DNA of 64,000 nucleotides from Pelomonas sp. Root405 (GTDB lineage: Bacteria > Pseudomonadota > Gammaproteobacteria > Burkholderiales > Burkholderiaceae_C), in contig NZ_LMDU01000011.1 in the NCBI RefSeq assembly GCF_001425165.1, forward strand, positions 186,058 through 250,057, written 5' to 3'. The notes below the pieces were generated by a model. The model saw nothing but the letters and a program-made list of their open reading frames with translations, searched no databases and was not told the DNA's origin. A program made the translations under genes and the position numbers. Below, one piece after another: positions 4,465 to 26,835 of this stretch (positions are counted from its first letter, which is position 1; each line of letters starts with the position of its first letter).

Positions 4465-4470
4465 TTCACG

Positions 4471-9723: not shown

Positions 9724-9735
9724 GCCGCGCGCCGC

Positions 9736-11766
9736 TCAGGCGCGTCGAGCGGCACTGACGAGGTCGGCCACGACGAGCACCAGCTCTGCCAGGTCGAACG
9801 GCTTGGCCAGATGGGCCTGATAGCCGGCGAGCAGCGAGCGCTTGCGATCTTCCGCACGCGCGAAAGCGGTGAGCGCGAGTGCGGGAATGCGGCGGTTGTC
9901 CTGTTCTGCCGCACGCACCGCCCGCATGAACTGGTAGCCATCAATGCGCGGCATGCCGATGTCACTGACGATGACCGTCGGCTTGCTGCTCTGCAGTGCC
10001 GTCAACGCGTCCTCCGCGCTTGCAAAGGCCGTCACTCTCACGCCCTGGTTCTCAAACACGCGGCTCATCAGCTCGCGCACGTCGGGCTCGTCGTCGACGA
10101 GGAAGGCATGGACGCCTTCCAGATTGGGCAGCACCAACGCTTCAGCCGGCACCGGCGCCGTCGGATGGCTGCGGCTGGCTTCCTCCTGGGCCAGCTGCAT
10201 GATGGACAAGGGCAGGGTGACGAAGAACGTCGCGCCGAGGTTCTCGCCCTGGCTCGCCACGCGGATGCTGCCGCCATGGAGTTCGACCAGCTGCTTGCAG
10301 ATGGCCAGGCCAAGGCCGAGGCCGCCAAAGTTGCGGGTCGCCGTGGCGTCACGCTGGGTGAAGCGCTCGAACACATGCGGCAGGAAGCTCGGCGGAATGC
10401 CGATCCCGGTGTCGCTGACGCTCAGTTCGATGTGCGAGTTCACCCGCTGCAGCAGCACCTGGATCTGGCCGTCCTTGGGGGTGAACTTGATCGCGTTGGT
10501 GAGCAGGTTCCACACCACTTGCTGAAGCCGCGCCGGGTCTGCGCTCACCAGCGATTCGATCGGCTCCAGCAGCGCGTGCAGGCGAAGGCCTTTGGCTTCT
10601 GCGGAAGGCCGGGCAGAGTCGATGGCCGCCTGCACGATCGGCGCGACCTGGACCTGCTGGATCTCCAGCCGCGTCTTGCCACTGACGATGCGGCTGAGGT
10701 CGAGCAGATCGTCGATGAGCTGGGCCTGTGCGCGCGCATTGCGGTCGATCACTTCATGCGCGCGCTGCAGTTGCTGAGGCGGCATCGAAGTCCCCTTGTG
10801 CAGCAGGATCTGGCTCCAGCCGAGGATGGCGCTCAACGGCGTGCGCAGCTCATGCGAGAGCGTCGCCAGGAACTCGTCCTTGATGCGCACTGCGTGCTGG
10901 GCGGCCATCCGCGCGCTGCGCTCTGCCTCCAGGAGTTCGTCACGCTGCCGGCTCTCCTGCTCTGCGGCTTCGACACGCTTCTTCTCGGTCAGGTCGCGGG
11001 TGAGCTTGGCAAACCCGAGCAGGCGGCCCGTGTCGTCGCGCAGCGCCGTGATCGTCACGTTCGCCCAGAACTGGCTGCCGTCCTTGCGCACGCGCCAGCC
11101 TTCATCGACGAAGCTGCCCTTGGCCGTCGCCTCCAGCAGTTCATGCTCCGGCCAGCCGGACTCACGCGCCTCGGCGGGATAGAAATTGGAAAAGTGCTGG
11201 CCGATGATGTCGTCGGCGGTGTAGCCCTTGATGCGCTCGGCCCCGACGTTCCAGGTGGCGATGTTGCCGTTGGGGTCAAGCATGAAGATGGCGTAGTCGG
11301 AGACACCTTCCACCAGCAGCCGAAAGCGTTCCTCGCTGCGGCGCAGCTCTTCCTCATGCGCGCGGCGCTGGGTCAGGTCGCGCGTGACCTTCGCAAAGCC
11401 GACCAGCCGGCCGTCTGACTCACGCATGGCCGTGATGACGACGTTGGCCCAGAACCGCGAGCCGTCCTTGCGCAAGCGCCAGCCCTCGTCCTCGAACGAC
11501 CCCGAGCTGGCGGCCACCTCCAGCTCATGCTGGGGCAGGTCCCTGGCCAGCGCCTCCGGTGGGTAGAACGTCGAGAAGTGGCGCCCGATGATCTCTTCCG
11601 GCAGGTAACCCTTGAGGTGCTCCGCACCGGTATTCCAGGTGAGAACGTATCCATCCGGGTCGAGCATGAAGATGGCGTAGTCCCGCACGCTCGCCACCAG
11701 CAGCCGAAACCGTTCATTGCTTTGGTGCAGATGATCGGCAGCACCGCTTGTCTGTTGTTCTGTCAT
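9736..11766 (-). CDS. Hybrid sensor histidine kinase with two PAS domains and receiver
   Basis: 676 residues without membrane segments. Two PAS domains (about 16-130 and 143-258) that are clear duplicates: both contain DYAIFMLDP, the E-x-I-G-x-HFS-x-FYP block and DEGWR-RKDGS-FWANV. HisKA with acceptor His305 in SHELRTP, HATPase_c with NLLTNAIKFTP (420-430), DTGIGIP and GGLGLGLAI, and a C-terminal receiver with Asp602 (VSDIGMP). Cytoplasmic sensing, perhaps of redox or small ligands, is inferred from PAS. It is convergent with the OmpR regulator gene with a 12-base gap. Confidence 0.92.
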   Translation of the reverse strand: MTEQQTSGAADHLHQSNERFRLLVASVRDYAIFMLDPDGYVLTWNTGAEHLKGYLPEEIIGRHFSTFYPPEALARDLPQHELEVAASSGSFEDEGWRLRKDGSRFWANVVITAMRESDGRLVGFAKVTRDLTQRRAHEEELRRSEERFRLLVEGVSDYAIFMLDPNGNIATWNVGAERIKGYTADDIIGQHFSNFYPAEARESGWPEHELLEATAKGSFVDEGWRVRKDGSQFWANVTITALRDDTGRLLGFAKLTRDLTEKKRVEAAEQESRQRDELLEAERSARMAAQHAVRIKDEFLATLSHELRTPLSAILGWSQILLHKGTSMPPQQLQRAHEVIDRNARAQAQLIDDLLDLSRIVSGKTRLEIQQVQVAPIVQAAIDSARPSAEAKGLRLHALLEPIESLVSADPARLQQVVWNLLTNAIKFTPKDGQIQVLLQRVNSHIELSVSDTGIGIPPSFLPHVFERFTQRDATATRNFGGLGLGLAICKQLVELHGGSIRVASQGENLGATFFVTLPLSIMQLAQEEASRSHPTAPVPAEALVLPNLEGVHAFLVDDEPDVRELMSRVFENQGVRVTAFASAEDALTALQSSKPTVIVSDIGMPRIDGYQFMRAVRAAEQDNRRIPALALTAFARAEDRKRSLLAGYQAHLAKPFDLAELVLVVADLVSAARRA

Positions 11767-13722: not shown

Positions 13723-15042
13723 ATGAAGCTGCTTGCCACCCTGCGCGGCCGCCTCTTCGCCCTGCTTGCGGTGCTCGGCGCCGTCACGGCCGCGGCAGTC
13801 GCCGGCGCCACCTACTTCAGCGTGCGCGCCGAGGCCGACGCGCTGTTCGACTACCAGTTGCGCCAGACGGCGCTGTCGCTGCGCGACCAGGGCCGCATCG
13901 CCGGCGATGAGGCCGCAGCGCTGGCCGACCCGGGCCTGGATTACGTGGTGCAGATCTGGTCGCTGCAAGGGCTGCAGCTGTACTCCAGCCGGCCGCAGGG
14001 GTTGACCGAGCCCCTGCCGGCGCGCGCGGTGCTGGGCTTCTCCAACCTGCGCCTGGGCGGACAGGACTGGCGCGTGTTCGGCGCGGCCACGCCGCTGCGC
14101 GTGGTGCAGGTGGCCCAGCCGCTGGCGGTGCGGCAGCGCCTGGCCGCGCTGGCCGCGCTGCGCAGCGTGGTGCCGGTGGCGGTGGCCCTGCCGCTGGTGG
14201 CGGCGGCACTGTGGTGGCTGATCGGCGTCTCGCTGGCGCCGCTGTCGCGCGTCGTGCAGGCGGCCCAGGCGGGCGGTGTGAACTCCCTGGGCGCGCTGCC
14301 GACCGAGGGCCTGCCCGGCGAGATCGCGCCGCTGGTGGAGGCTTTCAACGGCCTGCTGGCGCGCCTGTCGACGGCCTTCGACACCCAGCGCAGCTTTGTC
14401 GCCGACGCCGCCCACGAACTGCGCTCGCCGCTGACGGCGCTGAAGCTGCAGCTCGGCCTGCTGCGCGACTCGGCGCCCGGTGAGCAGCAGGACGCCGCCA
14501 TCGCCCGCCTGCGCGGCGGCATCGACCGCGCGGTGCACCTGGTGGAGCAGCTGCTGGCCCTGGCCCGCGCCGAGCCCGGCGCTGCGGCCGTCGAGCAGCC
14601 GCTGGACCTCGCCGAGCTGGCGGCCCAGGCCGTGGCCGACGTGCAGCCGCTGGCCGCCAAGGCCGGCGTGGCCCTCACGCTGACCGCCCCCGACCCGCTG
14701 CCGCTGAGCGGCGACCCGCAGGCCTTGCGCGGCGCCTTTCGCAACCTCATCGACAACGCCGTGAAGTACGGCGCCCGAACGGTGCAGGTGAGCGCCTTGC
14801 GCGGCCCCGGTGGCGCGCCGCTGCTGCGCGTGGACGACGACGGCCCGGGCATTCCGGCCGAGCAGCGCGAGCGTGTCTTCGACCGCTTCCAGCGCGGCGA
14901 AGGCACGGCCGTGGAAGGCAGCGGCCTGGGCCTGGCCATCGTGCGGGCGGCGGCCAAACAAAAAGGCGCCAGCGTGGTGCTGGCGCCTTCGCATCTCGGC
15001 GGCTTGCGGGCCGAGATTGATTTCGCCGCTCAGCGGAACTGA
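13723..15042 (+). CDS. Membrane sensor histidine kinase (QseC/TctE-like)
   Basis: 439 residues. Helix 1 at about 10-30, a periplasmic region of about 110 residues, helix 2 at about 148-168, HAMP-like linker, HisKA with His231 (DAAHELRSPLTAL), N-box NLIDNAVKYG, DDGPGIP and GLGLAIVRAAA. Start ATG 13723 (MKLLATLRGR); the upstream open frame is not protein-like. It matches the QseC/TctE class that works with QseB-like regulators such as the one at 9040. No regulator gene is adjacent. Its 3' end contains the intrinsic terminator of the convergent TonB-receptor gene and overlaps that gene by 13 bp. Confidence 0.9.
   Translation: MKLLATLRGRLFALLAVLGAVTAAAVAGATYFSVRAEADALFDYQLRQTALSLRDQGRIAGDEAAALADPGLDYVVQIWSLQGLQLYSSRPQGLTEPLPARAVLGFSNLRLGGQDWRVFGAATPLRVVQVAQPLAVRQRLAALAALRSVVPVAVALPLVAAALWWLIGVSLAPLSRVVQAAQAGGVNSLGALPTEGLPGEIAPLVEAFNGLLARLSTAFDTQRSFVADAAHELRSPLTALKLQLGLLRDSAPGEQQDAAIARLRGGIDRAVHLVEQLLALARAEPGAAAVEQPLDLAELAAQAVADVQPLAAKAGVALTLTAPDPLPLSGDPQALRGAFRNLIDNAVKYGARTVQVSALRGPGGAPLLRVDDDGPGIPAEQRERVFDRFQRGEGTAVEGSGLGLAIVRAAAKQKGASVVLAPSHLGGLRAEIDFAAQRN
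14955..14989 (-). terminator. Intrinsic terminator for the TonB receptor gene, inside the kinase ORF
   Basis: On the minus strand an 11-bp perfect stem (AAGGCGCCAGC / GCTGGCGCCTT, loop ACCAC) is followed by TTTTTGTTTG. It lies 41 bases beyond the TonB receptor stop codon, within the last 30 codons of the convergent histidine kinase, where it encodes the sequence around KQKGASVVLAP. Confidence 0.8.
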
Positions 15043-17798
15043 TAGCTCAAGCTGGCGAAGAAAGTGCGGCCGCGCGTGTCGCCATAGGTTGGGTCGTAGG
15101 TGACCTGGAAGTAGCGCGACTGGTTGGTGAAGGGCGGCGCGGTGTCGGCCACATTCAGCACGCCGGCGCGCAAGCGCAGCTCGGGCGTGATGCGGTAGCT
15201 GGCGGTCAGGTCCCACAGCGAGTAGGGCTTGACCTCGCGGTCGTTCCACTCGGGCGCGGCCAGGCCCGGCGTGTTCTGGTCGGTGTAGCCGGACATGTAG
15301 TTGTTGGTCACCGTCGCGCTGAAGGGGCCCATGTCCCAGTCCACGCTGAGCTTGTGGCGCCAGCGCTGCACGGCCTTGTCGTCGCGGAACTTGCCCAGGC
15401 CGCTGATCAGCGGCGAGCGTGGGTCGGTGTTGAACTTGTACTCGGTGACGACCGTGCCTGCCAGGCTGGCGCCGAAGCGGCCATAGGCGGTGGCCTCGCC
15501 GCGCCAGGACAACGAGAGGTCCAGGCCCGAGGTGTTGAGCTTGCCGCGGTTCTCCTTGCGGACCGTCACGATGTCGACGAAGCCGTCGGAGAAGCGCTTC
15601 ACGATGATCGGGTCGTTGTAGTAGACCGGGTTGGTGAAGATCGTCTCTTCGCCGATCTCCGAAATGATGTCGGTCTTGCGGATGGCCCAGTAGTCGACGC
15701 TGCCGTTCCAGGAACGCGAAGGCTCGAACACCATGCCGATGCTGAACTGCTTGGACTTCTCGGGCTTGAGGGCGGGGTTGGAGAAGCGGTCGACGACCAT
15801 CTGCGCGACTTCGCCGGACACCGGGTCCTTGACGAAGCTGGCGGTGATGCCATTGCGCACCGGGCGGAACATTTCCGACACCGTCGGCGCACGGAAGCCC
15901 GTGCCGTAGGACGCGCGGGCCAGCAGCGCGCGGTCGGGGCGGAAGGTCAGGCCGATCTTGGGGTTGGTGGTGCTGAGCTTGGGCGAGGTGGTGCCGGTGG
16001 CCGCGTCGAACACGCCGTCGTAGCGGTCGTGGCGGATGGCGAACTGGCCTTCCCACTGCTTGCTGAAGGGGGCGGACAGCTCGGTGAAGAGGCCCATCAC
16101 GTCGCGCTTGTGGCGGGTGTCGGCCAGCAGCGCGCCGGAGCTGGACCGGTCGTTGACGATGTCATTGCTCTTCAGCACGTCAGTGGCGCTGAACTCGGTT
16201 TCCTCGCGCCGCACTTCGGCGCCGACGGCCAGCATCAGGTCACCGCCGGCCAGCGCCGTCAGGGCGCGGGTCAGCTTGCCGTCGATGCTGGTGCTGGTGC
16301 CCTCGGCAATGCGCGCGGCACCATTGAGCTTGATGCCGTTCATGAAGTTGCGACCCGCATCGCCCGTGGACGGCACGAAGGGGTTGTAGGCACCGGCCTT
16401 GATGCCGGCCTCCAGCTTGGTCAGCGACACCCAGCCGTCGATGTTGGTGTCGGTGGCCTTGTTGGTGGCGACATTGATGGCGGTGTCGTAGTCCCAGCCG
16501 CTGAAGTGGCCGGTGGCGCCGACGACCACGCGGGTGGCCTCGCTCTCGACGCGGCTGGTGCGCTTGCCGGCATCGGTCAGGCGGAAGCGGAAGTCCACCG
16601 GCGTGGTGATGCCGGTCTGCTGCTGCAGCGACGTGGGCAGCGTGATGCCGACGGCCGCGCGGAAGCGGTTGGTGGCCGGCGAAGCGGCGTAGTCGGTCTC
16701 GGTCTTGGACAGCAGCACTTCCGCGAAGAGCTGGTGGTCGTCGGCGATCTGGAAGGTGGCGCGGCCGACGATGTTGGCCTTGTCCGAAGCCGGGTAGATC
16801 TCGGAGTCGCCCATGTAATTGAAGGCGCAGCCCTCGCGCCCGCCCGGGCCTGTGGGGGCCAGGGAGTTGGGGTTCAGGCCGCCAGTGCAGCTGGACTTGG
16901 CGAAGTTGACGCGGCGCGGCGCCGCGGTGCCGCCGCCCGGGTTCCAGGTGCCGTTGGCGTTGCTGCCCTTCAACGCGGTGTTGGGGTTGGCCAGCACGAA
17001 GTTGTTCAGCGCCGTGAGCTGACCCGCGGTCAGGTCGACATTGGCCGGGAAGGTGTTGCTGGACAGCTGGGGCGCCAGCCGGCCCGGCAGGTCGTATTCC
17101 TGGATGAATTTGCGCTGGGCCGAGCTCAGCGGATCGAGCTTCTGAACGTCCAGCGCGGCGAACACGTTGAAGCGGTCCCTGGCCAGGTCACCAAAGCCGG
17201 CCGACGCGGAGAAGGTCGTCTTGCCAGCGCCACCTTCGTCGGTGCGCGACGCATAGACGCCGAGGTCGACGCCCTGGTAGTCCTTGCGCGTGATGAAGTT
17301 GATGACGCCGCCCATGGCGTCGGTGCCGTAGATGGCGGAAGCGCCGTCCTTGAGCACTTCCACGCGCTGGATGGCGCCGGCCGGGATGTTGTTCAGGTCC
17401 ACGCCGGCGTTGTCGCCGGGCGAAGCAAAGTTGGCGAGGCGTCGGCCGTTCAGCAGCACCAGCGTGCTGGACACGCCCAGGCCGCGCAGGTTGGCGCCGT
17501 TGAAGCCGCGCTGGGCGCCGGACTGGTCGGTGATGCTGGCGCCGTCGGTCAGGCCGCCGACGTTGGAGGTGATCTTCTGCAGCAGCTCGGCCGCGGTCGT
17601 CACGCCAGCCTTGTCGATGTCGCCGCGCTTGATGACGTCCACCGGCAGGGCCGCCTCACCGTCGATGCGCTTGATGCTGGAGCCGGTGATCTCGACACGT
17701 TCGAGCTTCTGTTCCTGAGCCTGCGCCGGCAGCGCGATGAGACAGAGCAGCGCGGCGTGAGCCAGCGCGTGCCGTGCGAAGGAGGGAGCTGAAGTCAT
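15030..17798 (-). CDS. TonB-dependent outer-membrane receptor
   Basis: 922 residues: signal peptide (cleavage near 28, LPAQAQ), TonB-box-like LERVEITGS at about 32-40, plug domain about 48-165 (VDVIKRGDIDKAGV, NLRGLGVSSTLVLLNGRR, VEVLKDGASAIYGTDAMGGVINFI), then a 22-strand-type barrel ending LSYQFR. This is the large oxidised-substrate/oligopeptide-type receptor common in Xanthomonas and Caulobacter relatives rather than a siderophore receptor. Divergent from an exported cyanophycinase gene, with a tandem ArgR-like site between them, suggesting that it imports cyanophycin fragments such as beta-Asp-Arg (inference). Terminated by a hairpin inside the convergent kinase gene. Confidence 0.9.
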   Translation of the reverse strand: MTSAPSFARHALAHAALLCLIALPAQAQEQKLERVEITGSSIKRIDGEAALPVDVIKRGDIDKAGVTTAAELLQKITSNVGGLTDGASITDQSGAQRGFNGANLRGLGVSSTLVLLNGRRLANFASPGDNAGVDLNNIPAGAIQRVEVLKDGASAIYGTDAMGGVINFITRKDYQGVDLGVYASRTDEGGAGKTTFSASAGFGDLARDRFNVFAALDVQKLDPLSSAQRKFIQEYDLPGRLAPQLSSNTFPANVDLTAGQLTALNNFVLANPNTALKGSNANGTWNPGGGTAAPRRVNFAKSSCTGGLNPNSLAPTGPGGREGCAFNYMGDSEIYPASDKANIVGRATFQIADDHQLFAEVLLSKTETDYAASPATNRFRAAVGITLPTSLQQQTGITTPVDFRFRLTDAGKRTSRVESEATRVVVGATGHFSGWDYDTAINVATNKATDTNIDGWVSLTKLEAGIKAGAYNPFVPSTGDAGRNFMNGIKLNGAARIAEGTSTSIDGKLTRALTALAGGDLMLAVGAEVRREETEFSATDVLKSNDIVNDRSSSGALLADTRHKRDVMGLFTELSAPFSKQWEGQFAIRHDRYDGVFDAATGTTSPKLSTTNPKIGLTFRPDRALLARASYGTGFRAPTVSEMFRPVRNGITASFVKDPVSGEVAQMVVDRFSNPALKPEKSKQFSIGMVFEPSRSWNGSVDYWAIRKTDIISEIGEETIFTNPVYYNDPIIVKRFSDGFVDIVTVRKENRGKLNTSGLDLSLSWRGEATAYGRFGASLAGTVVTEYKFNTDPRSPLISGLGKFRDDKAVQRWRHKLSVDWDMGPFSATVTNNYMSGYTDQNTPGLAAPEWNDREVKPYSLWDLTASYRITPELRLRAGVLNVADTAPPFTNQSRYFQVTYDPTYGDTRGRTFFASLSYQFR

Positions 17799-17884
17799 AG
17801 GGCCTCGTGTTGTGAATGGGTGGAGCGGATGCCCCTCAGGTTAGGGATGCGGTGCAGGGGTTGCCTATGGGGTTTTGGCGCGCC

Positions 17885-17921
17885 GGTCGCTTGCACGCAA
17901 ATGCGCGTCGCTTCTCGGCAA
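17885..17921 (+). promoter_or_regulatory. ArgR-type (AraC family) tandem operator
   Basis: Two direct half-sites GGTCGC-TTGCACGC-AA (from 17885) and CGTCGC-TTCTCGGC-AA (from 17906) are exactly 21 bp apart. This is the TGTCGC-N8-AA-N5 tandem arrangement I know for Pseudomonas ArgR, with one mismatch per half-site. It lies in the 250-bp divergent gap, about 90 bp from the TonB receptor start and 127 bp from the cyanophycinase start. Confidence 0.55.
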
Positions 17922-18048
17922 GCGTCAGGAGCGGCCCTGCAACACGGCTTGCCCAGAAGCGACATGCAATTGCGTTCGTGGTGCGCCGCGCCTTGGTTTG
18001 GGGCCTAACCCGCTGGCTGCTGCGGCGGGGCACTGCCAACATGGCTTC

Positions 18049-19275
18049 ATGAATTTCCTCAAACGACTTATGTTTTGTGCGCTGTGGTGCGGCAGCGCGG
18101 CCCATGCCGGCACGGCCATCGTCATCGGTGGCGCGCTGAAGACCGACAACGACGCCGTGTGGCAGCGCATCGTCGACGAGGCCGGCGGGGCCGGCGCACG
18201 CATTGCCGTGTTCGCCACGGCCGCCGCCAATCCCGAGCGCAGCGCCGGCCAGATCGTGGCCGCGCTGAACCACCGCGGCGCCCATGCCGAAGCCATTCCC
18301 GTCGCGCCGCGCTTGGCAGGCGTCGACCTGCCAGCCAATCTCAACGACCCGGCGCTGATCGCCAAGGTGGCAGCCGCCAAGGCCGTGTTCTTCTCGGGCG
18401 GCGCGCAGGAACTGATTGTCGACACGCTGCAGCCGGGCGGCGAGCCCACCGCCATGCTCAAGGCCATCCGCCAGGTCTTCGACGGCGGCGGCGTGGTGGC
18501 CGGCACCAGCGCGGGCGCGGCCATCATGAGCCGCATGATGTTCCGCGACGCGCAGGACAACATGCAGATCCTCAAGGGCCAGTGGCGCGACCGGCGCGAG
18601 TACGACCGCGGGCTGGGCTTTGTCGGGCCCGACCTCTTCATCGACCAGCACTTCCTCAAGCGCGGCCGCATCGGCCGCATGCTGCCGGCGATGCGGGCCT
18701 TCAACTACCGCTTGGGGCTGGGCGTCGAGGAAAACTCGGCCATCGTCGTCAAGGGCGCCGAGGTGGAAGTGATCGGCGCGCGCGGCGCCCTGCTGGTGGA
18801 CCTGTCCGAGGCCACGTCCGACCCCAAGCTGCCGGCCTTCAACCTGCGCGGCGCGCTGCTGAGCTACCTGGACCGCGGCGACCGTCACGACCTCAGCACC
18901 GGCGTGACGACACCCGCCCCGCACAAGCTACGCGAGGCCAAGATCGACCCGGCCGCGAGCGACTACAAGCCCTATCTGCAAAGCGACGGCTACTTCCTCG
19001 ACATCCTCGGCGACTCCACCATCACCACCGCGATGGCGCAACTGCTGGACAGCCCGCTGCCCGAGGTGCGCGGCCTGGCCTATCGCGCCAAGCCCCGCGC
19101 CGGCGACATGGCGCCAGACCTCGGCTTCGAATTCCGCCTCTACAAGGGCCCGGGCCTGGTCGGCTGGTTCAGCGGCGCTTTGGGCGGCGAGGACTACACG
19201 GTGCTGAAGGCGCGCCTGGACGTGATCCCCGTGCGCGTGGCCCAGCCGTTGTTCACCCCGCTCGTCGCCCATTGA
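18049..19275 (+). CDS. Exported cyanophycinase (peptidase S51 family)
   Basis: 408 residues with a signal peptide (cleavage after AHA, residue 20). The S51 triad is complete: Ser154 in AGTSAGAA, His201 in FIDQHFLKRGR and Glu228 in GVEENSAI. Cyanophycinases hydrolyse cyanophycin to beta-Asp-Arg dipeptides; exported forms degrade polymer released by other cells. The 100 residues after the catalytic core form a C-terminal extension. Divergent from a TonB receptor and followed by an M14 hydrolase and a carrier, which is consistent with capture and catabolism of the dipeptides. Start ATG 18049 chosen because it gives the signal peptide. A second cyanophycinase is encoded at 25346-26707. Confidence 0.88.
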   Translation: MNFLKRLMFCALWCGSAAHAGTAIVIGGALKTDNDAVWQRIVDEAGGAGARIAVFATAAANPERSAGQIVAALNHRGAHAEAIPVAPRLAGVDLPANLNDPALIAKVAAAKAVFFSGGAQELIVDTLQPGGEPTAMLKAIRQVFDGGGVVAGTSAGAAIMSRMMFRDAQDNMQILKGQWRDRREYDRGLGFVGPDLFIDQHFLKRGRIGRMLPAMRAFNYRLGLGVEENSAIVVKGAEVEVIGARGALLVDLSEATSDPKLPAFNLRGALLSYLDRGDRHDLSTGVTTPAPHKLREAKIDPAASDYKPYLQSDGYFLDILGDSTITTAMAQLLDSPLPEVRGLAYRAKPRAGDMAPDLGFEFRLYKGPGLVGWFSGALGGEDYTVLKARLDVIPVRVAQPLFTPLVAH

Positions 19276-19289
19276 CAAGAAACCCAAAG

Positions 19290-19365
19290 GCAACCACAGA
19301 GACACAGAGGCACGGAGTGAATCCAAGGCTTGCCTTGCTCTGTGCCTCAGTGCCTCTGTGGTTGC
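19290..19365. repeat. CACAGAG hairpin repeat (repeat B), copy 2
   Basis: Arms GCAACCACAGAGACACAGAG and GTGCCTCTGTGGTTGC pair with few mismatches; same outer arms as 5834-5893 but an unrelated spacer. It occupies the 105-bp gap between the cyanophycinase and the M14 hydrolase genes. Confidence 0.85.
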
Positions 19366-19380
19366 ATTTCTGAGCTGACC

Positions 19381-20499
19381 ATGCAAACCCTTTTCCACGA
19401 CCTGCCGCCCGCCAGCGCCGGCACGCAGCGGCGCCTGCGCAGCCTGCACTTCGGCCGCGCCGCGTCGGGCCGCAAGGCCTATCTCCACGCCAGCCTGCAT
19501 GCCGACGAAATACCGCCGATGCTGGTAGCGCAATGCCTGATCGAGCGGCTGTCGGCCCTGGATGCGGCGGGGGCGATTGCCGGCGAGATCGTCCTCGTGC
19601 CCATGGCCAACCCCATCGGCCTGGCGCAGGACATCCAGGGCTCGGCCTTCGGTCGCTTCGACATGGGCACGGGCGCCAACTTCAACCGCCAGTTCAAGCA
19701 CCTCACCGCCGCGCTGATCCCGCTCGTCGAGCCACGGCTCGGCGCCGACGTGGCCGCCAACACCCGCGTCATCCGCGCCGCCTGCCACGAGCTGCTGGCC
19801 GCGGTCGAGCCCGGCAGCGAAACGAACGCCCTCAAGCTGCTGCTGCAGACATTGGCGATGGACGCCGACCTGGTGCTGGACCTGCACTGCGACAACCAGG
19901 CCGTCATGCACGTCTACACCGGCACACCGCAGACGGCCGCCTTCCAGCCGCTGGCCGGCTACCTCGGCGCGCAAGCCCTGCTGTACAGCGAGGTCTCGGG
20001 CGACGACCCCTTCGACGAGACGGCGTCGCGCATCTGGTGGGAGCTGGCCGCGCATTTCGAGGGCCGCTTTCCCATCGATGCCCAGGCCTGCCTGGCCGCC
20101 ACCGTCGAGCTGCGCGGCGAGACGGAGGTGTCGCACGACCTGGCCGAGCAGGACGCCGACGCGCTGCTGGCCTTCCTGCGCCACCTCGGCCATGTCGACG
20201 GCACCGCGCCGCGCGCGCCGGCCGGCTGCGAGCCGACACCGCTGGAGGGCGTGGAGCCGCTGACGGCGCCATCGAGCGGCATCCTCGTCTTCGCCAAGCA
20301 GCCGGGCGACTGGGTCGAGGCCGGCGAGCTGGTGGTGGAAATCATCTGCCCGCTGACCGATGCCCGCACCGCCCTGCATGCCCGTGCCAGCGGCCGCTGC
20401 TTTGCGCGCACGTCGCGCCGCTTCGCCACCCGCGGCATGCGCCTGGCCAAGATCGCCGGTTCGGTCGCCTACCGAAGCGGATCGCTGCTCTCGCCATGA
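19381..20499 (+). CDS. M14-family zinc hydrolase (AstE/AspA-like succinylglutamate desuccinylase/aspartoacylase family)
   Basis: 372 residues. Zinc ligands are visible as His40 and Glu43 in LHADE and His169 in DLHCD; the likely general base is Glu243 in TVELRGE. A C-terminal beta domain (about 285-372, APSSGILVFAKQPGDWVEAGELV) is the usual cap of the family. Family members remove acyl groups from amino acids (AstE, aspartoacylase) or act as carboxypeptidases. Next to a cyanophycinase, plausible substrates are beta-Asp-Arg dipeptides or N-succinyl-glutamate; the sequence alone does not decide. It has no signal peptide, so it acts in the cytoplasm. Overlaps the following carrier gene by ATGA. 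Confidence 0.8.
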   Translation: MQTLFHDLPPASAGTQRRLRSLHFGRAASGRKAYLHASLHADEIPPMLVAQCLIERLSALDAAGAIAGEIVLVPMANPIGLAQDIQGSAFGRFDMGTGANFNRQFKHLTAALIPLVEPRLGADVAANTRVIRAACHELLAAVEPGSETNALKLLLQTLAMDADLVLDLHCDNQAVMHVYTGTPQTAAFQPLAGYLGAQALLYSEVSGDDPFDETASRIWWELAAHFEGRFPIDAQACLAATVELRGETEVSHDLAEQDADALLAFLRHLGHVDGTAPRAPAGCEPTPLEGVEPLTAPSSGILVFAKQPGDWVEAGELVVEIICPLTDARTALHARASGRCFARTSRRFATRGMRLAKIAGSVAYRSGSLLSP

Positions 20500-21884
20500 A
20501 ACTCAAGCTCCCCAACACCTACGTGCTGCTGGTCGTCCTGCTGGCGTTGATTGCCGCGGCCACCTGGGTCGTGCCCGGTGGCAAATTCGACACCCAGCTC
20601 GTTGACGGCAAGAACGTCATCTTCGCCGGCAGCTATCACGTGGTGGAGGCCAAGCCGCAAGGGTTGGTGGCGCTGCTGACCTCGCCGATCAAGGGCTTTG
20701 TCGAGGCGGCGCTGATCATCGGCTTCGTGCTCATCGTCGGCGGCGCGTTCGCGGTGCTGCAGCGCACCCAGGCCATCGACGCGATGATCAAGTCGGTCGC
20801 GCGCGCCCACAACCGCTCGGCCCTGGTGCGCGTGGCGGTCATTCCCGTCTTCGTCACGCTGTTCTCGCTGGGCGGCGCCACCTTCGGCATGGCGGAAGAA
20901 GCCATTCCCTTCGTGCTGATCTTCATCCCGCTGGCGCTGGCCTTGAAGCTGGACACGCTGACCGGCGTGGCCATTCCCTTCGTCGGCTCGCAGGTGGGTT
21001 TCGCCACGGCCTTCCTGAACCCCTTCAATGTCGGCGTGGCCCAGGGCATTGCCGGCGTGCCGCTGTTCTCCGGCATCGGCTACCGCGCCATCTGCTGGGC
21101 GATCGCCACGGCGCTGACCGTCGGCTTCCTGATGTGGTGGGCGGCGCGCATCAAGCGCTCGCCCCAGTTGAGCCCCACCTATGCGATGGACCAGGAGCGC
21201 CGCAAGACGCTGGACTTGGCCAGCTTCGAGAACTTCGCCGGCATGACCGGCCGGCACCGCGCCGTGCTGTGGCTGTTTGCGGCGACCCTCGGCGTGATGA
21301 TCGTCGGCGTCGTCAAGTACGGCTGGTACATCGAGGAGATCGCGGCGCTTTTCCTCGTCATGGCCATCACCGTGGGCATCGTCGCGCGGCTGTCGGCGGA
21401 CGAGTTCATGGCCGCCTTCCTGCACGGCGCGCGCGATCTGGTCGGCACGGCACTGGTCATCGCGCTGGCCAAGGCCACCGTCATCCTGATGCGCGACGGC
21501 CAGATCATCGACACCATGCTGCATGCGCTGGCGCCGCTGGTGGAGAGCAGCTCGCCGGTGTTCTCGGCGCAGAAGATGTTCGTCATCCAGTCGGTCATCA
21601 ACTTCTTCATCCACTCCGGCACCGGCCAGGCCGCGCTGACCATGCCCATCATGGCGCCGCTGTCCGATCTGGTGGGCGTGACCCGGCAGACGGCGGTGCT
21701 GGCGTTTCAGTTCGGCGAGCTGACCACGCCGATCATCCCGACCTCGGGCATCACGGTGGGCGTGCTCGCGCTGGCTGGGGTGCCGTTTGGGCAGTGGGTG
21801 AAGTGGATGCTGCCGTTGCAGGCGATCTATCTCGTGATGGCGTTGGCGCTGTTGGCGGTGCCGGCGTTGGTGAACTGGCAGTGA
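20496..21884 (+). CDS. YfcC-family carrier (C4-dicarboxylate anaerobic carrier / ArcD-like superfamily)
   Basis: 462 residues with about twelve hydrophobic segments. Family features include TWVVPGGKFDTQLVDGKN near the N-terminus, GGATFGMAEEAIPF, GSQVGFATAFLNPFNVGVAQGIAG and the later NFFIHSGTGQAALTMPIMAPLSDLVG. YfcC relatives are proposed amino acid or dipeptide carriers. Translationally coupled (ATGA) to the M14 hydrolase, so the pair probably imports and cleaves the same compound, here most likely a cyanophycin-derived dipeptide or arginine (inference). Followed by the 555-bp palindrome. Confidence 0.85.
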   Translation: MKLKLPNTYVLLVVLLALIAAATWVVPGGKFDTQLVDGKNVIFAGSYHVVEAKPQGLVALLTSPIKGFVEAALIIGFVLIVGGAFAVLQRTQAIDAMIKSVARAHNRSALVRVAVIPVFVTLFSLGGATFGMAEEAIPFVLIFIPLALALKLDTLTGVAIPFVGSQVGFATAFLNPFNVGVAQGIAGVPLFSGIGYRAICWAIATALTVGFLMWWAARIKRSPQLSPTYAMDQERRKTLDLASFENFAGMTGRHRAVLWLFAATLGVMIVGVVKYGWYIEEIAALFLVMAITVGIVARLSADEFMAAFLHGARDLVGTALVIALAKATVILMRDGQIIDTMLHALAPLVESSSPVFSAQKMFVIQSVINFFIHSGTGQAALTMPIMAPLSDLVGVTRQTAVLAFQFGELTTPIIPTSGITVGVLALAGVPFGQWVKWMLPLQAIYLVMALALLAVPALVNWQ

Positions 21885-21928
21885 GCACAATGGGGTGATG
21901 CTTCGTCATTGCTTTGGCTTTTTGGCAA

Positions 21929-22483
21929 GGCCCAGCCGGGAGTTCGCCCCGGCGGGCGACTCACTTTCTTGTGCGCACAAGAAAGTAAGCAAAGAAAGCG
22001 CCCCTGCAAAACCGGCCCTTCGGGCTGCCCTGCGATGCTCGAAGGCCGAGGCCCGCGCTCAACTCCCTTCGCTACGCTGCGGTCAAACAGTAGCGCGGAG
22101 TCAGATGTCGAAGCGTGCTGCGCACGCGCCTCGGCCTTCTGCGCTTCTCGGCGGTTTTGAAGGGGAGAGCCGAAACAGCCGGACAGCCCAACAGCCAAGC
22201 CGGACATCCGGCTATCGCCGGCTGTTCCTTCACCCCCCCTTTAAGCCCGCCGAGGAGCGCAGCGGCTTGCAACCGCGTGCGCAGCACGCCTCAAGCTCTG
22301 ACTCCGCGCAGCTGTTTGACCGCAGCGTAGCGAAGGGAGTTCTGCGCGGGGTTGCAAGCCGCGAGCACCGCAGGGCAGCCCGCTGCGAAGCTAAGGGCCG
22401 GGCGGTTCGGGGGCGACTTTTTGCCTTCTTTTTGGTCGCTCAAAAAGAAGGTCGCCGGCCGGGGCGACGTCCCGGCATGGGCC
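21929..22483. repeat. 555-bp near-perfect palindromic element
   Basis: The region folds on itself about position 22206. Outer arms are GGCCCAGCCGGG (21929) and CCCGGCATGGGCC (22471); an internal pair, 22061-22090 with 22312-22341, is a perfect 30-bp inverted repeat coding no protein; the axis contains AGCCGGACATCCGGCT. The arms also hold short local hairpins such as ACTTTCTTGTGCGCACAAGAAAGT. Open frames here are by-products of the symmetry. It fills the 630-bp gap between the carrier gene and the ArgR-like regulator. Similar palindromes with the CTTGTGCGCACAAG motif are, from memory, common in Burkholderiales and Xanthomonadales. Confidence 0.85.
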
Positions 22484-22514
22484 TTCGGGTCGACGCACTC
22501 ACGGAACAGCAACC

Positions 22515-23510
22515 GTGAACGCAGAACCCACACGCCGCCGCGTCGCGCTTCTGCCGCTGCCCGGCTTCTCCTTGCTGGCCCTGGCCGGCGTGCTCGACAG
22601 CTTGGCCGCCGCCAACGAGCTGCAGGCCGAGGCGGTGTGGCGCTGCGACTGCCTGTCGCTGGCCGGCGGACCGGTTGCCGCCGGCAACGGCGCCCAACTG
22701 CACACCGAGGCCCTGCCACTCGACGTCGACTGGCACGCCGTCATCGTCATCGCCGCCGACACCAGCCCCTGCGACCCCGCCCTGGCGGCTCGCCTCAAGC
22801 GCTGGGCGGCCGACGGTGTCGTGCTTGGCGGCATCGACGCCGGCGCTGCCCAGCTCGCTGCCTGCGGCCTGCTCGACGGCCAGCGCGCCTGCGCCGACTG
22901 GGCGCTGCTGGACAGCCTGGCCGAGGCCCACCCTGGCGTCGCCTGGGCCAACGGTCTGTGGGAGATCAGCGCCGATGGCCTGCGACTGTCCGCCGCCTCG
23001 GGCCTGGCCAGCCTGGACCTGTGCGGCGCCTGGCTGGCGGCCCAGCATGGCGAGCGTCTGGGCCAGGAGCTGGCGCAGTGGCTGGGCGTGAAGGGCCTGC
23101 GCCCGCGCGACGAGCGCCAGCGCGCGGGCTACAGCGAGCGCCGCGGCGCCGGCAGCCCCAAGCTGGCCGAAGCGCTGGCGCTGATGGAGGCCAACCTCGG
23201 CGAGCCGCTGCCGACCGAGGAGGTGGCCACCCTTGTCGGCGTGTCGCGTCGCCAGCTCGAACGGCTGTTCAAGCAACACCTGGACACCCTGCCCTCGCGC
23301 CACTACCTGGCGCTGCGCCTGGGGCGCGCGCAGCGCCTGCTGCAGCAAAGCTCGCAGTCCATCCTGCAGATCGGCCTGTCCTGCGGCTTCTCGTCGGGCC
23401 CGCATTTTTCGAACGCCTACAAAAGCCATTTCGGCCACACGCCGCGCGACGAACGCAGCCGGCGCGCGCTGGCCTGGCGCTCTGCGCCCACTCCCGGAGA
23501 CCCCACATGA
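22515..23510 (+). CDS. AraC/GlxA-type regulator, similar to Pseudomonas ArgR
   Basis: 331 residues. An N-terminal DJ-1/PfpI-like amidotransferase-fold domain (about 8-190) without an obvious catalytic Cys-His pair, then an AraC double helix-turn-helix (about 225-320; VGVSRRQLERLFKQHL and ILQIGLSCGFSSGPHFSNAYKSHFG). Pseudomonas ArgR/AruR, which activates arginine succinyltransferase genes, has this architecture. The start is GTG 22515. It overlaps the succinyltransferase gene downstream by ATGA. Its likely operators are the tandem half-sites at 17885 and 26799 (inference from pattern and context). Confidence 0.85.
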   Translation: MNAEPTRRRVALLPLPGFSLLALAGVLDSLAAANELQAEAVWRCDCLSLAGGPVAAGNGAQLHTEALPLDVDWHAVIVIAADTSPCDPALAARLKRWAADGVVLGGIDAGAAQLAACGLLDGQRACADWALLDSLAEAHPGVAWANGLWEISADGLRLSAASGLASLDLCGAWLAAQHGERLGQELAQWLGVKGLRPRDERQRAGYSERRGAGSPKLAEALALMEANLGEPLPTEEVATLVGVSRRQLERLFKQHLDTLPSRHYLALRLGRAQRLLQQSSQSILQIGLSCGFSSGPHFSNAYKSHFGHTPRDERSRRALAWRSAPTPGDPT

Positions 23511-24529
23511 ATGACCTGCTGCTGCGCCCCGTGGCCGAGGCCGACCTGCCCGCACTGATGCGCATGGCGGCGGCGAGTGCCGACGGCATCAGCTCGCTGC
23601 CCAACGACGAGGCCAAGCTGGCCGCGCGCATCGCCGCGTCGATGCAGTCCTTTGCCAGCCTGGACGACGCCAGCGGCGAGGAGACCTATCTCTTCGTGCT
23701 GGAGGACATGTCGGCCCGTCGCGTGGTCGGCTGCTCGGGCATTGCCGCCAGCGCTGGCTTCTTCGACCGCTTCTACAGCTACCGCAACGAGTTCGTCGTG
23801 CATGCGAGCAATGCGTTAGGGGTGTCGCAGCGCATGCACACCCTGCACCTCTGCCACGACCTGACCGGCGCGACGCTGCTGACCTCCTTTTATCTCGACC
23901 CCGACTACGAGCACGGCCCCGCCGCCCAGCTGCTGTCGCGCTCGCGGCTGCTCTTCATCCGGGCTCATGCCGAGCGCTTCTCGGAGCGCATCGCCGCCGA
24001 GAGCCCGGGCATCACCGACGCCGCCGGCCAGAGCCCCTTCTGGGATGCCGTCGGCCGGCGCTTCTTCGGCATGGACTATCCGCAGGCCGAACTCATCGTC
24101 GGCGGCCGCAGCAAGGCCTTCATCGCCGACCTGATGCCGCCCTCACCCATCTATGTCGCCCTGCTGCCCGAGGCCGCGCAGTGGGCCCTGGGCCAGCTGC
24201 ACCCGGTGGGCGAGCTGCCCTTCTCGGTGCTGCAGGACGAGGGCTTCGATGCCGACAGCTATGTCGACATCTTCGATGGCGGGCCGACGGTGGACGCGCC
24301 GCTGGCCTCGTTGCGCAGCGTGAGGCTGGCGCGCGAGGTCGTCGTGGCGGCCGAGGCCGATGTGCGCGAGCGCGAGTGGGCCCTGCTGGCTTGCACGGAG
24401 CGCACGCGCTTTCGCGCCGTCCTCGCCCAGGTCGGCCGCGAGGTGGACGCCGGCACCGCCGCCCGCGTCGGCGCGCAGCCGGGCGAGCGCCTTGTCATGA
24501 CGCCTTTGCAGACGGAGGTGTCCGCATGA
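23507..24529 (+). CDS. astA: Arginine N-succinyltransferase (AstA/AruF type)
   Basis: 340 residues, full length for the family. N-terminal LLLRPVAEADLPALMRMAA, GISSLPNDEAKLAARI, central YSYRNEFVVHASNALGV, TDAAGQSPFWDAVGRRFFGMDY, KAFIADLMPPSPIYVALLP and IFDGGPTVDAPL all correspond to conserved AstA blocks. AstA transfers a succinyl group from succinyl-CoA to arginine (or ornithine), the first step of the AST degradation pathway. Second gene of the regulator-astA-astA-like operon, with 4-bp overlaps on both sides. astB, astC and astD are not in the window, so the rest of the pathway is elsewhere. Confidence 0.9.
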   Translation: MNDLLLRPVAEADLPALMRMAAASADGISSLPNDEAKLAARIAASMQSFASLDDASGEETYLFVLEDMSARRVVGCSGIAASAGFFDRFYSYRNEFVVHASNALGVSQRMHTLHLCHDLTGATLLTSFYLDPDYEHGPAAQLLSRSRLLFIRAHAERFSERIAAESPGITDAAGQSPFWDAVGRRFFGMDYPQAELIVGGRSKAFIADLMPPSPIYVALLPEAAQWALGQLHPVGELPFSVLQDEGFDADSYVDIFDGGPTVDAPLASLRSVRLAREVVVAAEADVREREWALLACTERTRFRAVLAQVGREVDAGTAARVGAQPGERLVMTPLQTEVSA

Positions 24530-25206
24530 GCCGCATCCTGCTAACCCATGAAACGGGCGGCATCCGGCTGTCACTGGACGACAGCAATGCGTCGCTGCTG
24601 CTGGTGCCGCGCCTGGGCCTGACGCTACCGCGCTACCACTTCCGCCTCGGCCGCGTCGTGCATGCCGCCGCCGAGCTCGAGCTGTTCCGCGTGCAGACCA
24701 CGCTGCTGCTGGGCAACGACCACACCGGCCATGCCGAGCTGACCGAACTGCGCACGGCGCCGGGACTGGGCGAGGCCGCTCAGGTGGCGGCGGTGTCGAC
24801 ACTGATCGCTGCCGCACAGGCGCAGCTGCGCGAGCGGCCGGCCGATTTCGGCGACTGGCTGGTGGCCGAGCTGCCGGGCCGGCGTGACGAACAGGGCCAC
24901 TCGCCCTTCTGGCAGGCCCTGGGCGCGCGCTTCTACCCCGGCGACCCGGCCGAGGCCGAAGCGCGGCTGGGGCCGGACTGGCGCAGCCACCTGGCGGCGC
25001 TGTTGCCGCGGCAGACGGTGTATTTGTCCTTCCTCGGTGAAGAGGCCGAGAGCCGCGTGCTGGATGTCGACGACGCGGCGAGACCAGCTTTGATGGCACT
25101 GCAGGCGGCAGGCTTCCTGCCGCCCGTGCATGCGCGTATCGATGACGGTGGACCAGTGCTGGCTTGGCCCGTCCCGCGTGCGGCTGCGTCGACGATGCAA
25201 GGGTGA
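24526..25206 (+). CDS. Truncated AstA-like protein, possible second succinyltransferase subunit
   Basis: 226 residues that align only with the middle and C-terminal parts of AstA: PRYHFRLGRVVHAAAELELF, LLGNDHTGHAEL, RDEQGHSPFWQALGARFYPGD and IDDGGPVLAW. The N-terminal 100 residues of AstA are replaced by a short stretch, and the DPDW-type donor-binding region is shortened. Start ATG 24526 overlaps the astA stop (ATGA). In Pseudomonas, AruF and AruG are two full-length paralogous subunits; here the second is shorter, so it may be a structural or regulatory partner rather than a catalyst (inference). Followed by repeat A. Confidence 0.75.
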   Translation: MSRILLTHETGGIRLSLDDSNASLLLVPRLGLTLPRYHFRLGRVVHAAAELELFRVQTTLLLGNDHTGHAELTELRTAPGLGEAAQVAAVSTLIAAAQAQLRERPADFGDWLVAELPGRRDEQGHSPFWQALGARFYPGDPAEAEARLGPDWRSHLAALLPRQTVYLSFLGEEAESRVLDVDDAARPALMALQAAGFLPPVHARIDDGGPVLAWPVPRAAASTMQG

Positions 25207-25212
25207 GTATTT

Positions 25213-25345
25213 GGGCCGAGCGCCGGGCCGCCCCAAGCCGGCCCGTCAGGCGATGTGCTTGCCGGTCAATCCGGCAAGCACCGCCGTCGCCTCGGGGGAC
25301 CGACTGGGCTTGCCCGCGTACAGCGGCGCAAGACCAGGCGAGGGG
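25213..25345. repeat. Dispersed intergenic repeat A, copy 2
   Basis: Close match to 4329-4464. Contains a perfect 9-bp stem GCTTGCCGG-TCAAT-CCGGCAAGC at the place where copy 1 has a stem with other bases. It fills the gap between the convergent astA-like and cyanophycinase genes and ends on the base before the cyanophycinase stop codon. Confidence 0.8.
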
Positions 25346-26707
25346 TCAATAGATATCCACCTTCACCTTGTCCACCGTGTATTTGCCGCCGCTGTAGTAG
25401 CCCTTGCTGGTAGCGTCGCGCGTGAAGCGCAGGCGGATGACGGGCGAGCCGCTGGGGTAGGTCGGGCCGCTGCTGTAGACGGGCACCGGGGCCGTGCCGG
25501 TATTGATCGTCGGCGTCTGGTCCACCACGCGCGTCAGGGACTTGGACGTCTCCAGCGCGGCAAAGATGTCGGCCGAGTTGTAAGCACTGCCGTAGTAGTA
25601 GGCCGTGCCGATGGCGCTCTTGCTGCTGGTGACGACCTTGCTCGAATAGTTGTAGCGGTCGCCCGGCGTCAGCAGGCTCACGCGCAGCCCGTTGACCTTG
25701 TAGTAACTGCCGGTCTGCACGCTTGCCGCCGCCGTGTCGACGATCAGCAGCCGGTTGGCGCCATAGACGGTGGCCGTCTGTGACGAGGTGTCCACCAGCA
25801 CGCCGGTGTTCTCGTCGACGCCGAAGCCCTGGGCCACGCTGAGGTCGCGCAGCGCGGCGGCCAGGCGGCCCAGGCGCCCGGAGCGGCTGTCGAAGTGGGT
25901 GTCGCTGAGGATGCCCGCGGGCAGAAAGCCCAGGCCCTTCATCGTCGCGCCGTTCTCCAGGTAGCGCAGCGCGCTGGTGCCGTCACGCGTGTCGCCCAGC
26001 GTCTGCCAGCCCGTGACGGCCGTGTCAGGCAGGTCCGCGCCGTAGTACAGGTAGCCATAGCTGACGCCACCGGCATGCATCTTCACGTTCAGCGCATGGT
26101 TGCCGGCCGAGTCGCCGGCGATGACGATGTTGCCGCTGCCGTTGTTCCAGCGCGCCCGCAGCGCAGCGGCCAGGCCGGAGTCGGCACCGCTGTCGGTCAG
26201 CAGCGTGCGGATGACCTTGGCCTGGTCGCCGCCGACGATCCAGACCGCGTCGGCCTGGTTGATGAGGGCGATGTTGGCCTGGCCCTGCGTGGTGCTGCTG
26301 CTGGCATGCACGCCGTAGTTGTCGACGTGGGCCGTGATGTGCTTCGGGCTGAAGCCGTGGGTCTGGAAGAGGTTGTAGTAGCCGCGCTTGACCGGTGACG
26401 AGCCACTGGCCGGGATGTCGTTGTTGAAGGCGTCAAGGCCGACGGCATAGGTCTCCTTGGACGCCGTGATGACGGCGATGCGCGGGCACACGGTGGTGGC
26501 CCAGTTGCTGCCGCAGTTGTTGGTGCTGCTGATGTTGGGCGTGTAGCTGCTGTCGCGGCCCGTGGCCTTGCGCAGACCGTTGACGAAGAGGTCGGTGTTG
26601 ACGTCGTCATAGGCGCCGCCGGACAGGAAGATCTTGCCGGCCAAGGCCGGTGCGCTGGCCAGGCCCAGCAGCAGGGCCCCAACGAGGGCGGTGATGTTCT
26701 TTCTCAT
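25346..26707 (-). CDS. Second exported cyanophycinase-like protein (peptidase S51)
   Basis: 453 residues with a signal peptide (cleavage after ALA, residue 23). The triad is present: Ser200 in IAGDSAGNH, His271 in SDTHFDSRSGRLGRL and Glu299 in GVDENTGVLV. Compared with the first cyanophycinase the nucleophile elbow is GDSAGN rather than GTSAGA, and there is an insertion near 55-75 with two cysteines that could pair in the periplasm or outside the cell. A 100-residue C-terminal domain rich in Tyr, Ser and Thr follows the core. Start ATG 26707 gives the signal peptide. An ArgR-like tandem site lies 92-128 bp upstream of the start. Converges on the astA operon. Confidence 0.85.
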   Translation of the reverse strand: MRKNITALVGALLLGLASAPALAGKIFLSGGAYDDVNTDLFVNGLRKATGRDSSYTPNISSTNNCGSNWATTVCPRIAVITASKETYAVGLDAFNNDIPASGSSPVKRGYYNLFQTHGFSPKHITAHVDNYGVHASSSTTQGQANIALINQADAVWIVGGDQAKVIRTLLTDSGADSGLAAALRARWNNGSGNIVIAGDSAGNHALNVKMHAGGVSYGYLYYGADLPDTAVTGWQTLGDTRDGTSALRYLENGATMKGLGFLPAGILSDTHFDSRSGRLGRLAAALRDLSVAQGFGVDENTGVLVDTSSQTATVYGANRLLIVDTAAASVQTGSYYKVNGLRVSLLTPGDRYNYSSKVVTSSKSAIGTAYYYGSAYNSADIFAALETSKSLTRVVDQTPTINTGTAPVPVYSSGPTYPSGSPVIRLRFTRDATSKGYYSGGKYTVDKVKVDIY

Positions 26708-26798: not shown

Positions 26799-26835
26799 TT
26801 GCAGCGGCGCGACATGGATTTGCGTCGCCGTGCCG
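26799..26835 (-). promoter_or_regulatory. ArgR-type tandem operator upstream of the second cyanophycinase
   Basis: On the minus strand the half-site TGTCGC-GCCGCTGC-AA (26814 down to 26799) matches the Pseudomonas ArgR half-site perfectly. Exactly 21 bp upstream, CGGCAC-GGCGACGC-AA (26835 to 26820) is a weaker half-site keeping the AA. Same period as the site at 17885. Confidence 0.5.

Follow-up and report, generated by a model that had tools for sequence, protein, structure and literature searches.

In a 64,000-nucleotide stretch of Pelomonas sp. Root405, a bacterium of soil/water type (contig NZ_LMDU01000011.1, positions 186,058 to 250,057, G+C content 70%, hereafter the window), eight genes between positions 15030 and 26707 probably form an accessory, arginine-responsive operon for the scavenging of cyanophycin, a nitrogen-storage polymer of many microbes, and this operon would be derived from the arginine locus aot-argR-aru. 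The new evidence for this reading comes from tandem ARG boxes in the cluster and from a pattern of inheritance which suggests that the genes encoding an M14 hydrolase and a YfcC-type carrier are exchanged jointly.

In the proposed route, exported S51 peptidases would cut cyanophycin outside the cell, or would cut fragments imported through a TonB-dependent receptor in the periplasm, to beta-Asp-Arg. The dipeptide would cross the inner membrane through the YfcC-type carrier, and a cytosolic M14 hydrolase of the CphZ/AotO family would split it into Asp and Arg, while an ArgR-type regulator would sense arginine and act through ARG boxes on the promoters of receptor/S51a and of S51b. This would provide a testable regulatory link, ArgR with its ARG boxes, joining arginine sensing with cyanophycin scavenging, as well as a specific candidate for the dipeptide carrier and an example of an arginine locus rebuilt for a polymer. 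The features are as follows.

15030-26707, both strands: the eight genes of the cluster, all open frames (open reading frame and profile scans)
15030..17798, minus strand: TonB-dependent receptor (plug and barrel, PF00593/PF07715), 922 aa, signal-like N terminus (by eye)
17885..17921, plus strand: tandem ARG boxes between receptor and S51a, two 16-bp half-sites with a 21-bp period (consensus from the accessible part of PMC10963909)
17949..17964, minus strand: exact ARG half-site in the same receptor/S51a intergenic region, one of two exact matches in the window
18049..19275, plus strand: S51a, cyanophycinase-family peptidase, 408 aa, signal-like N terminus (TIGR02069, 7uqv)
19381..20499, plus strand: M14 zinc hydrolase, CphZ/AotO family, 372 aa, no signal peptide seen (PDB match, motifs)
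20496..21884, plus strand: YfcC/DcuC-type carrier, proposed dipeptide carrier (PF03606, 323 bits)
22515..23510, plus strand: AraC-family regulator, Pseudomonas ArgR type (identity to annotated ArgR)
23507..24529, plus strand: AruF-like arginine/ornithine N-acyltransferase subunit (PF04958, 368 bits)
24526..25206, plus strand: AruG-like subunit (AruG'), N-terminally shortened, without the conserved His (PF04958, 111 bits)
25346..26707, minus strand: S51b, second cyanophycinase-like peptidase, 453 aa, signal-like N terminus (TIGR02069, 3en0)
26799..26814, minus strand: exact ARG half-site, 91 bp before the S51b start as set here, the other exact match in the window

Conserved neighbourhood, hydrolases and transporters

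Every gene that an earlier note on this DNA had named was recovered by the open reading frame and profile scans, and the conservation of their neighbourhood was followed in 43 M14 loci from a genome collection (other records). The full block, in which a receptor gene on the minus strand is followed by S51a, M14, YfcC, the AraC-family regulator and two AstA-type genes, is repeated in 10 of the 43 loci (L001-L010), and S51b was also observed in L001, L002, L003 and L006. The co-occurrence proposed earlier is borne out by these counts, which support a recurring unit of S51 enzymes, receptor, carrier, M14 hydrolase and ArgR-like regulator. Within the same genus, the window-type M14 was found in 9/20 genomes, exactly those with the AruF/AruG' pair, and was flanked by YfcC and S51a in eight of these nine (the ninth M14 is cut off by the contig end); since the genus set and the 43 loci partly overlap, as seen from the M14 row L092 of genome G014, which equals L005 in length, identity and motifs, the two counts are not independent.

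M14 is adjoined by YfcC in 28 of the 43 related loci, and ABC importer genes surround it in place of YfcC in L031-L034, forming a complete importer in L034. Six Inhella-type loci (L034-L037, L042 and L043) contain the receptor, S51, M14, the regulator and two AstA-type genes, with no YfcC beside M14. In the Undibacterium/Massilia loci, the S51 and receptor genes are found on the far side of a divergent gene, whose family was seen in 18 loci and has an RpiR/SIS regulator as its annotated representative; no AraC or AstA gene was present in the fetched Undibacterium/Massilia stretches, some of which are short.

S51a, M14 and YfcC are consecutive on the plus strand of the window, and three four-base overlaps were found, between the M14 stop and the YfcC start, between the regulator and AruF, and between AruF and AruG'. 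The gap between YfcC and the regulator is 630 bases in the window vs 13-17 bases in L001-L003. Because the two genes are so close in these relatives, the unit from S51a to AruG' probably forms a single operon; the receptor gene points away from it on the left, and S51b points towards it on the right. The gap in the window (21885-22514) is a large imperfect inverted repeat that matches itself at 73% over ~580 bp.

The window M14 protein is a member of the CphZ/AotO family. It is 45% identical to the M14 gene of the Pseudomonas aot operon, which we take to be the gene named aotO in the aot-argR-aru locus, and its closest named relatives are found in Roseateles-type Burkholderiales (80-81% identity). 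The HADE, DLHCD and ELRG motif columns, which presumably include the zinc-binding residues as assigned from the family, are kept in the window protein and across the family in the alignment. The best PDB matches were 8ein and 8eip, with 223 and 220 bits (next match 79 bits); the entry title of 8ein is succinylglutamate desuccinylase, and both are assumed here to be the published CphZ structures (Sharon et al. 2023). The two chains differ by Glu to Ala at one column, where the window protein has Glu.

A family of cyanophycin dipeptide hydrolases was published in 2023 and is reported, in the accessible part of PMC10206079, to be specific for beta-Asp-Arg/Lys. The window M14 is proposed to be such a beta-Asp-Arg hydrolase, and the guess in the earlier note that it may fill this role agrees with the published family and with the 8ein match; the role is not new, because it was already published in 2023. 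The membership in the M14 AstE/AspA-type family, the motif residues and the clustering with cyanophycinase-family genes are common to CphZ and the window protein. Unlike CphZ, the window protein is a predicted enzyme, and its gene shares a Burkholderiales operon with those of a YfcC carrier and an ArgR-type regulator. The earlier statement that no isoaspartyl dipeptidase is present holds for the families in the ten proteins scanned (the genome search omitted IadA and IaaA), except that M14 is itself one by family.

Against the cyanophycinase model TIGR02069 (cut-off 126.6), S51a reached 126.2 bits as protein and 127.5 bits in the genome search, and S51b reached 99.9 and 100.4 bits; S51b is also slightly below the Pfam cut-off (22.5 vs 23.9). 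The Ser/His/Glu triad motifs are present in both (GTSAGA, DQHF and GVEEN in S51a; GDSAG, DTHF and GVDEN in S51b). The best PDB match of S51a is the cyanophycinase 7uqv, with the triad aligned, and the triad of S51b aligned to 3en0 in two weak pieces. By eye, both proteins have hydrophobic, Sec-signal-like N termini, ending in AHA-G and ALA-G, respectively; the S51b start was set at 26707 for this signal-like N terminus, and an in-frame ATG lies at 26815. Of the two exported cyanophycinases claimed in the earlier note, the triads are confirmed in both, the signals are as judged by eye, and the family assignment is borderline for S51a and below the cut-off for S51b.

The triad and the binding residues of S51 enzymes, as well as a Thr at the place of Gln173 in CphE, are given in the accessible part of PMC3235067, and its pocket residues could be read by eye in S51a, which also displays a DQHF..R.R..R motif (by eye). 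In common with the extracellular CphE of that source, S51b has a signal-like N terminus, the triad and Thr for Gln173 (DTHF motif), and the two are of comparable length (453 aa for S51b, 1260 bp for the CphE gene); the arginine triplet of S51b is spaced one residue wider (by eye). S51a carries a CphB-like Gln, unlike CphE, despite its exported look.

The receptor is divergent to S51a in all ten loci L001-L010. Its closest paralogue within the source genome is the receptor of a second locus, L082 (47% identity, 724 bits; next paralogue 452 bits), which adjoins a tandem S51 pair. In the proposed route, cyanophycin fragments would be the substrate of the receptor and beta-Asp-Arg that of the carrier. 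The earlier note had regarded receptor and carrier as new components of cyanophycin scavenging, and this has been overtaken by the literature, as both kinds are already reported: in 2012 a TonB receptor gene near a cyanophycinase gene was described with cyanophycin as possible substrate (accessible part of PMC3400609), and transporter-containing loci for cyanophycin utilisation have been published (accessible part of PMC10206079). The Citromicrobium case of PMC3400609 shares with the window the receptor gene near a cyanophycinase gene and, in the part of that paper at hand, differs in that no hydrolase-carrier-regulator operon is described. The utilisation locus of Ben Hania et al. 2017 (via PMC10206079, accessible in part) has clustered cyanophycinase, dipeptidase and transporter genes as here; unlike the window, it has iadA and belongs to a Bacteroidetes scavenger of cyanobacteria. 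The literature search returned no paper joining cyanophycin with YfcC and none on the aotO gene, whereas two papers (PMC6146663 and PMC2606687) mention cyanophycin as well as arginine succinyltransferase; the 2023 CphZ study may cover part of the present findings.

ARG boxes and the ArgR-type regulator

The regulator was 44% identical to annotated ArgR over 319 aligned columns, so the ArgR-like regulator of the earlier note is retained. An identity as GbdR was also considered and was rejected, the match to the GbdR model being below cut-off.

According to the accessible part of PMC10963909, the ARG box is TGTCGCN6GNAA and occurs in tandem 5 bp apart, with the second repeat generally less conserved; boxes 5 bp apart give a 21-bp period. 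When this published form was searched as a tandem with no more than one mismatch per half-site, a single instance was found in the 64-kb window and none in 40 Markov windows. The strict tandem was found in 10/12 Roseateles-type loci (the window and L024, whose stretch stops before argR, being counted) and in 5/6 Inhella-type loci, that is, in 15/18, and in all 15 positive loci it sits between the receptor and S51a matches. It was found in 0/19 Undibacterium/Massilia loci and in 0/17 other loci, among them the Pseudomonas record (L149) and L150 of genome G036. With a looser half-site pattern (TGTCGC-N8-AA), 16/18 loci were positive vs 15/18 with the published form, and the looser-pattern matches in L082, L115 and L041 disappeared when the published form was applied at one mismatch. 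Allowing two mismatches left little power, with 17 hits in the 40 Markov windows and further matches in L027, L039, L082 and L115.

The window holds two exact half-sites, one before S51a and one before S51b. In L001-L003 the S51b site comprises a pair of half-sites at a 21-bp period, of which the second has two mismatches; if S51b started at the upstream ATG (26815), the half-site of the window would lie inside the gene. These results support predicted ARG boxes as the tie of the receptor and both S51 genes to the ArgR-type regulator, and the cluster is apparently switched by arginine. In L035, which holds a separate YfcC-like gene (37% identity) farther off from M14, an exact half-site was observed at 15538 upstream of that gene, ~215 bp from its aligned start and 26 bp from its longest reading frame.

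ARG boxes would also suit a general uptake locus for arginine or basic peptides, in which the S51 enzymes cut other isoaspartyl or acidic peptides and not cyanophycin. This explanation, which would also fit the aot-argR-aru ancestry and the fact that neither S51 protein clearly passes the cyanophycinase cut-off, is considered unlikely in view of the specificity for beta-Asp-Arg/Lys reported for the M14 family (PMC10206079, accessible in part), the pocket residues of PMC3235067 (likewise) that are readable by eye in S51a, the presence of two different S51 types with an ARG half-site upstream of each, and a genome in which genes for cyanophycin synthetase and additional S51 and CphZ proteins are found.

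Ancestry of the locus and probable joint exchange of M14 and YfcC

In the annotated Pseudomonas record, the gene order is substrate-binding protein, two permeases, M14, aotP, argR, aruC, aruF, astA (aruG) and astD. The window order corresponds to aotO-carrier-argR-aruF-aruG of Pseudomonas with aruC absent, so that M14, a carrier part, argR, aruF and aruG are common to both loci. In contrast to the Pseudomonas locus, the window has YfcC in place of the ABC importer genes and a truncated AruG, adds the S51 enzymes and the TonB receptor, and is without aruC and astD, with no AstB in the genome. The whole Pseudomonas-like arrangement together with AstB was found in genome G036, and in L034 the importer, the regulator, AruF and a second AstA-like gene are present with S51 and receptor added. 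These loci can be read as a series, in which an arginine locus would have become one for cyanophycin. The ATPase gene that follows M14 in L036, L037 and L042 is of AotP type, has no adjacent permease and is perhaps the leftover of an ABC importer.

In the M14 tree (L041, L024, L092, L038, L016 and L015 left out), the YfcC-linked proteins fall into a single 29-member group with support 94/99, not starred, and the six Inhella-type proteins form a separate group (99/95, starred), joined by the third CphZ of the source genome (91/96). The receptor and S51 trees were quick trees with no bootstrap, from which L015, L016, L024, L092, proteins <300 aa and the S51b-labelled rows were left out. In the receptor tree, seven Roseateles-type and five Inhella-type proteins are mixed in one clade of 12 (100, starred), and the S51a proteins of the two types also group together (94), that of L034 excepted. 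One clade of Roseateles-type M14 (the second CphZ of the source genome included) and Inhella-type M14 was rejected by the approximately unbiased (AU) test with p-AU 0.0014, for a group that was picked after the identities had been seen. Since this M14 clade is rejected while the receptors mix, M14 and YfcC probably entered together, which suggests that they behave as an exchangeable import-and-cleave unit.

Several observations weigh against the reading as a cyanophycin-scavenging operon with an exchanged M14/YfcC pair. S51a is at, and S51b clearly below, the cyanophycinase cut-off, and the carrier, with 363.6 bits, falls under the cut-off (500) of YfcC's own model NF008611 (putative basic amino acid antiporter). 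The beta-Asp-Arg dipeptide has a mass of ~290 Da and can pass porins, so that polymer fragments, or a different compound altogether, may be what the receptor takes up. Among the Inhella-type loci, only an ATPase gene is beside M14 in L036, L037 and L042, and no transporter gene is there in L035 and L043. The tandem box is missing at one mismatch from L009, L010 and L034 (3/18 loci), from the Pseudomonas record L149, which has single half-sites before aotJ and aruC, and from L150 of G036, both of which bear argR; nor was any ARG box found in the intergenic stretch of the second S51/receptor locus L082. In the trees, the YfcC-linked M14 group includes L026 and L083 (the second CphZ of the source genome), which have no YfcC beside them, the Roseateles-type receptors L004, L006, L008 and L009 are outside the mixed clade, and the L034 receptor joins the Massilia ones.

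Fate of arginine and cyanophycin genes elsewhere in the genome

The AruF-like protein is 47% identical to AruF, and AruG' is 35% identical to AruG over 183 columns and covers positions 77-262 of the 337 in the PF04958 profile. The histidine of the GQLH motif, which we take to be catalytic, is kept in 17/17 AruF-like and in 0/17 AruG-like proteins; a His is also found at this place in three AstA proteins of G036 and G027 and in both AruF and AruG of Pseudomonas. Of the arginine succinyltransferase genes described in the earlier note, the AruF-like one stands as full length with its His, and the AruG-like one is shortened and has lost it.

No match to AstB was obtained in the source genome or in 20/20 same-genus genomes, with AstB present in 2/40 genomes searched overall and in the controls E. 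coli and Caulobacter. There was likewise no AstB match in the genomes of 16 fetched loci with the AruF/AruG' pair (a set that overlaps the same-genus genomes and whose genome completeness is unstated); the 19-genome search to which they belong gave 2/19 positives, neither of which has the pair in the stretch that was fetched. AstD was over its cut-off in 0/13 same-genus genomes and in 1/21 overall. In the source genome the best AstD match reached 258 bits vs 579, and PF04952 (AstE C-terminal domain) was absent, with four PF24827 matches, three of them CphZ-type and one other.

These results contradict the earlier view in which arginine enters the arginine succinyltransferase (AST) pathway. A scavenging route that is otherwise as above but degrades the freed arginine by AST, beginning at the two AstA genes, could be argued from the full-length AruF-like protein with its conserved His and its identity to AruF, and from the further AST genes in the same neighbourhood of Pseudomonas and G036; given the lack of AstB matches in the source genome, the same-genus genomes and the genomes of the pair-bearing loci, the AstD scores, the absence of PF04952 and the His lost from 17/17 AruG' proteins, it is very unlikely. 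An arginase-type gene was found at C13:444794 (named by eye), and PF00491 was matched in 13/13 same-genus genomes and 16/21 overall, which makes ornithine and urea a likely fate; arginine is probably handled by arginase or used directly, and not through AST.

The pair is kept without an AST pathway and is always together with this locus in the genus, and with no such pathway to feed, it is regarded as either a relic or an acyltransferase put to a new use. More tentatively, YfcC of this clade might be a dedicated beta-Asp-Arg carrier travelling with the hydrolase, and AruF/AruG' a repurposed N-acyltransferase acting on the dipeptide or on arginine. A second ureohydrolase place of the source genome (L115, ~3700-10800) sits next to genes for an aldehyde dehydrogenase and an aminotransferase-like protein (by eye), a neighbourhood that is possibly of a guanidinobutyrate-type route.

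The source genome also encodes cyanophycin synthetase CphA1 (958.9 bits vs a cut-off of 850), next to which lies a paralogue, and CphA1 was over the cut-off in 20/20 same-genus genomes and 27/40 overall. The two genes are in tandem in L084 (10148-17726), where an ABC-type gene and a small gene are their neighbours; for sludge bacteria, PMC10687191 describes two clustered cphA copies together with a gene for an ABC transporter.

Six S51 places were found in the source genome, two in the window, the tandem pair of L082, one in L083 and one weak. The L082 pair is divergent from the second receptor gene and has one member with a clear signal-like N terminus, and a tandem pair was visible in 19/20 same-genus genomes (draft G010 shows one place, and in G019 the second is partial). 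Beside the clusters of L009 and L010 (~670-5270), a second receptor and S51 pair was observed, grouping with the receptor and S51 of L082. In L083, a CphB-like S51 with no visible signal peptide is back to back with the second CphZ, and this S51 type (>180 bits) was found in 2/20 same-genus genomes. The second CphZ (L083, 8660-9820) departs from its relatives in the last residues, possibly by a changed frame near the end. The CphZ genes of the source genome number three (window, L083 and L117). The third lies within an ABC importer operon (L117), has a 46-53% counterpart in 20/20 same-genus genomes (split in G001), and has an ATPase gene beside it in 16/18 loci of this type that were read (not L140 and L143).

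Since the genus has another S51/receptor locus and CphA1, the window locus is regarded as an accessory scavenging route. A role in turning over cyanophycin of the cell itself or of lysed kin, instead of polymer from other organisms, would suit the CphA1 genes of the source genome and its relatives and is improbable, in that S51a and S51b look exported, the CphB-like S51 with the second CphZ in L083 is a better candidate for own granules, and the window-type M14 is found in 9/20 genomes vs 20/20 for CphA1. The accessory scavenging reading also bears on beta-proteobacteria at large, in which a recognisable cyanophycinase was reported for only 2.8% of CphA1 genomes (accessible part of PMC10206079), whereas 20/20 genus genomes searched here have CphA1 together with an S51 match that passes the cyanophycinase cut-off.

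At 3554-6695 of the window, ~8 kb from the cluster, there is a set of genes for an ABC importer of amino acids whose ATPase is AotP-like (50% identity). A response regulator (9040-9723) and a QseC-like histidine kinase (13723-15042) are neighbours in L001-L003, and in the window they are parted by ~4 kb with a PAS-type kinase and two other genes (partly by eye).

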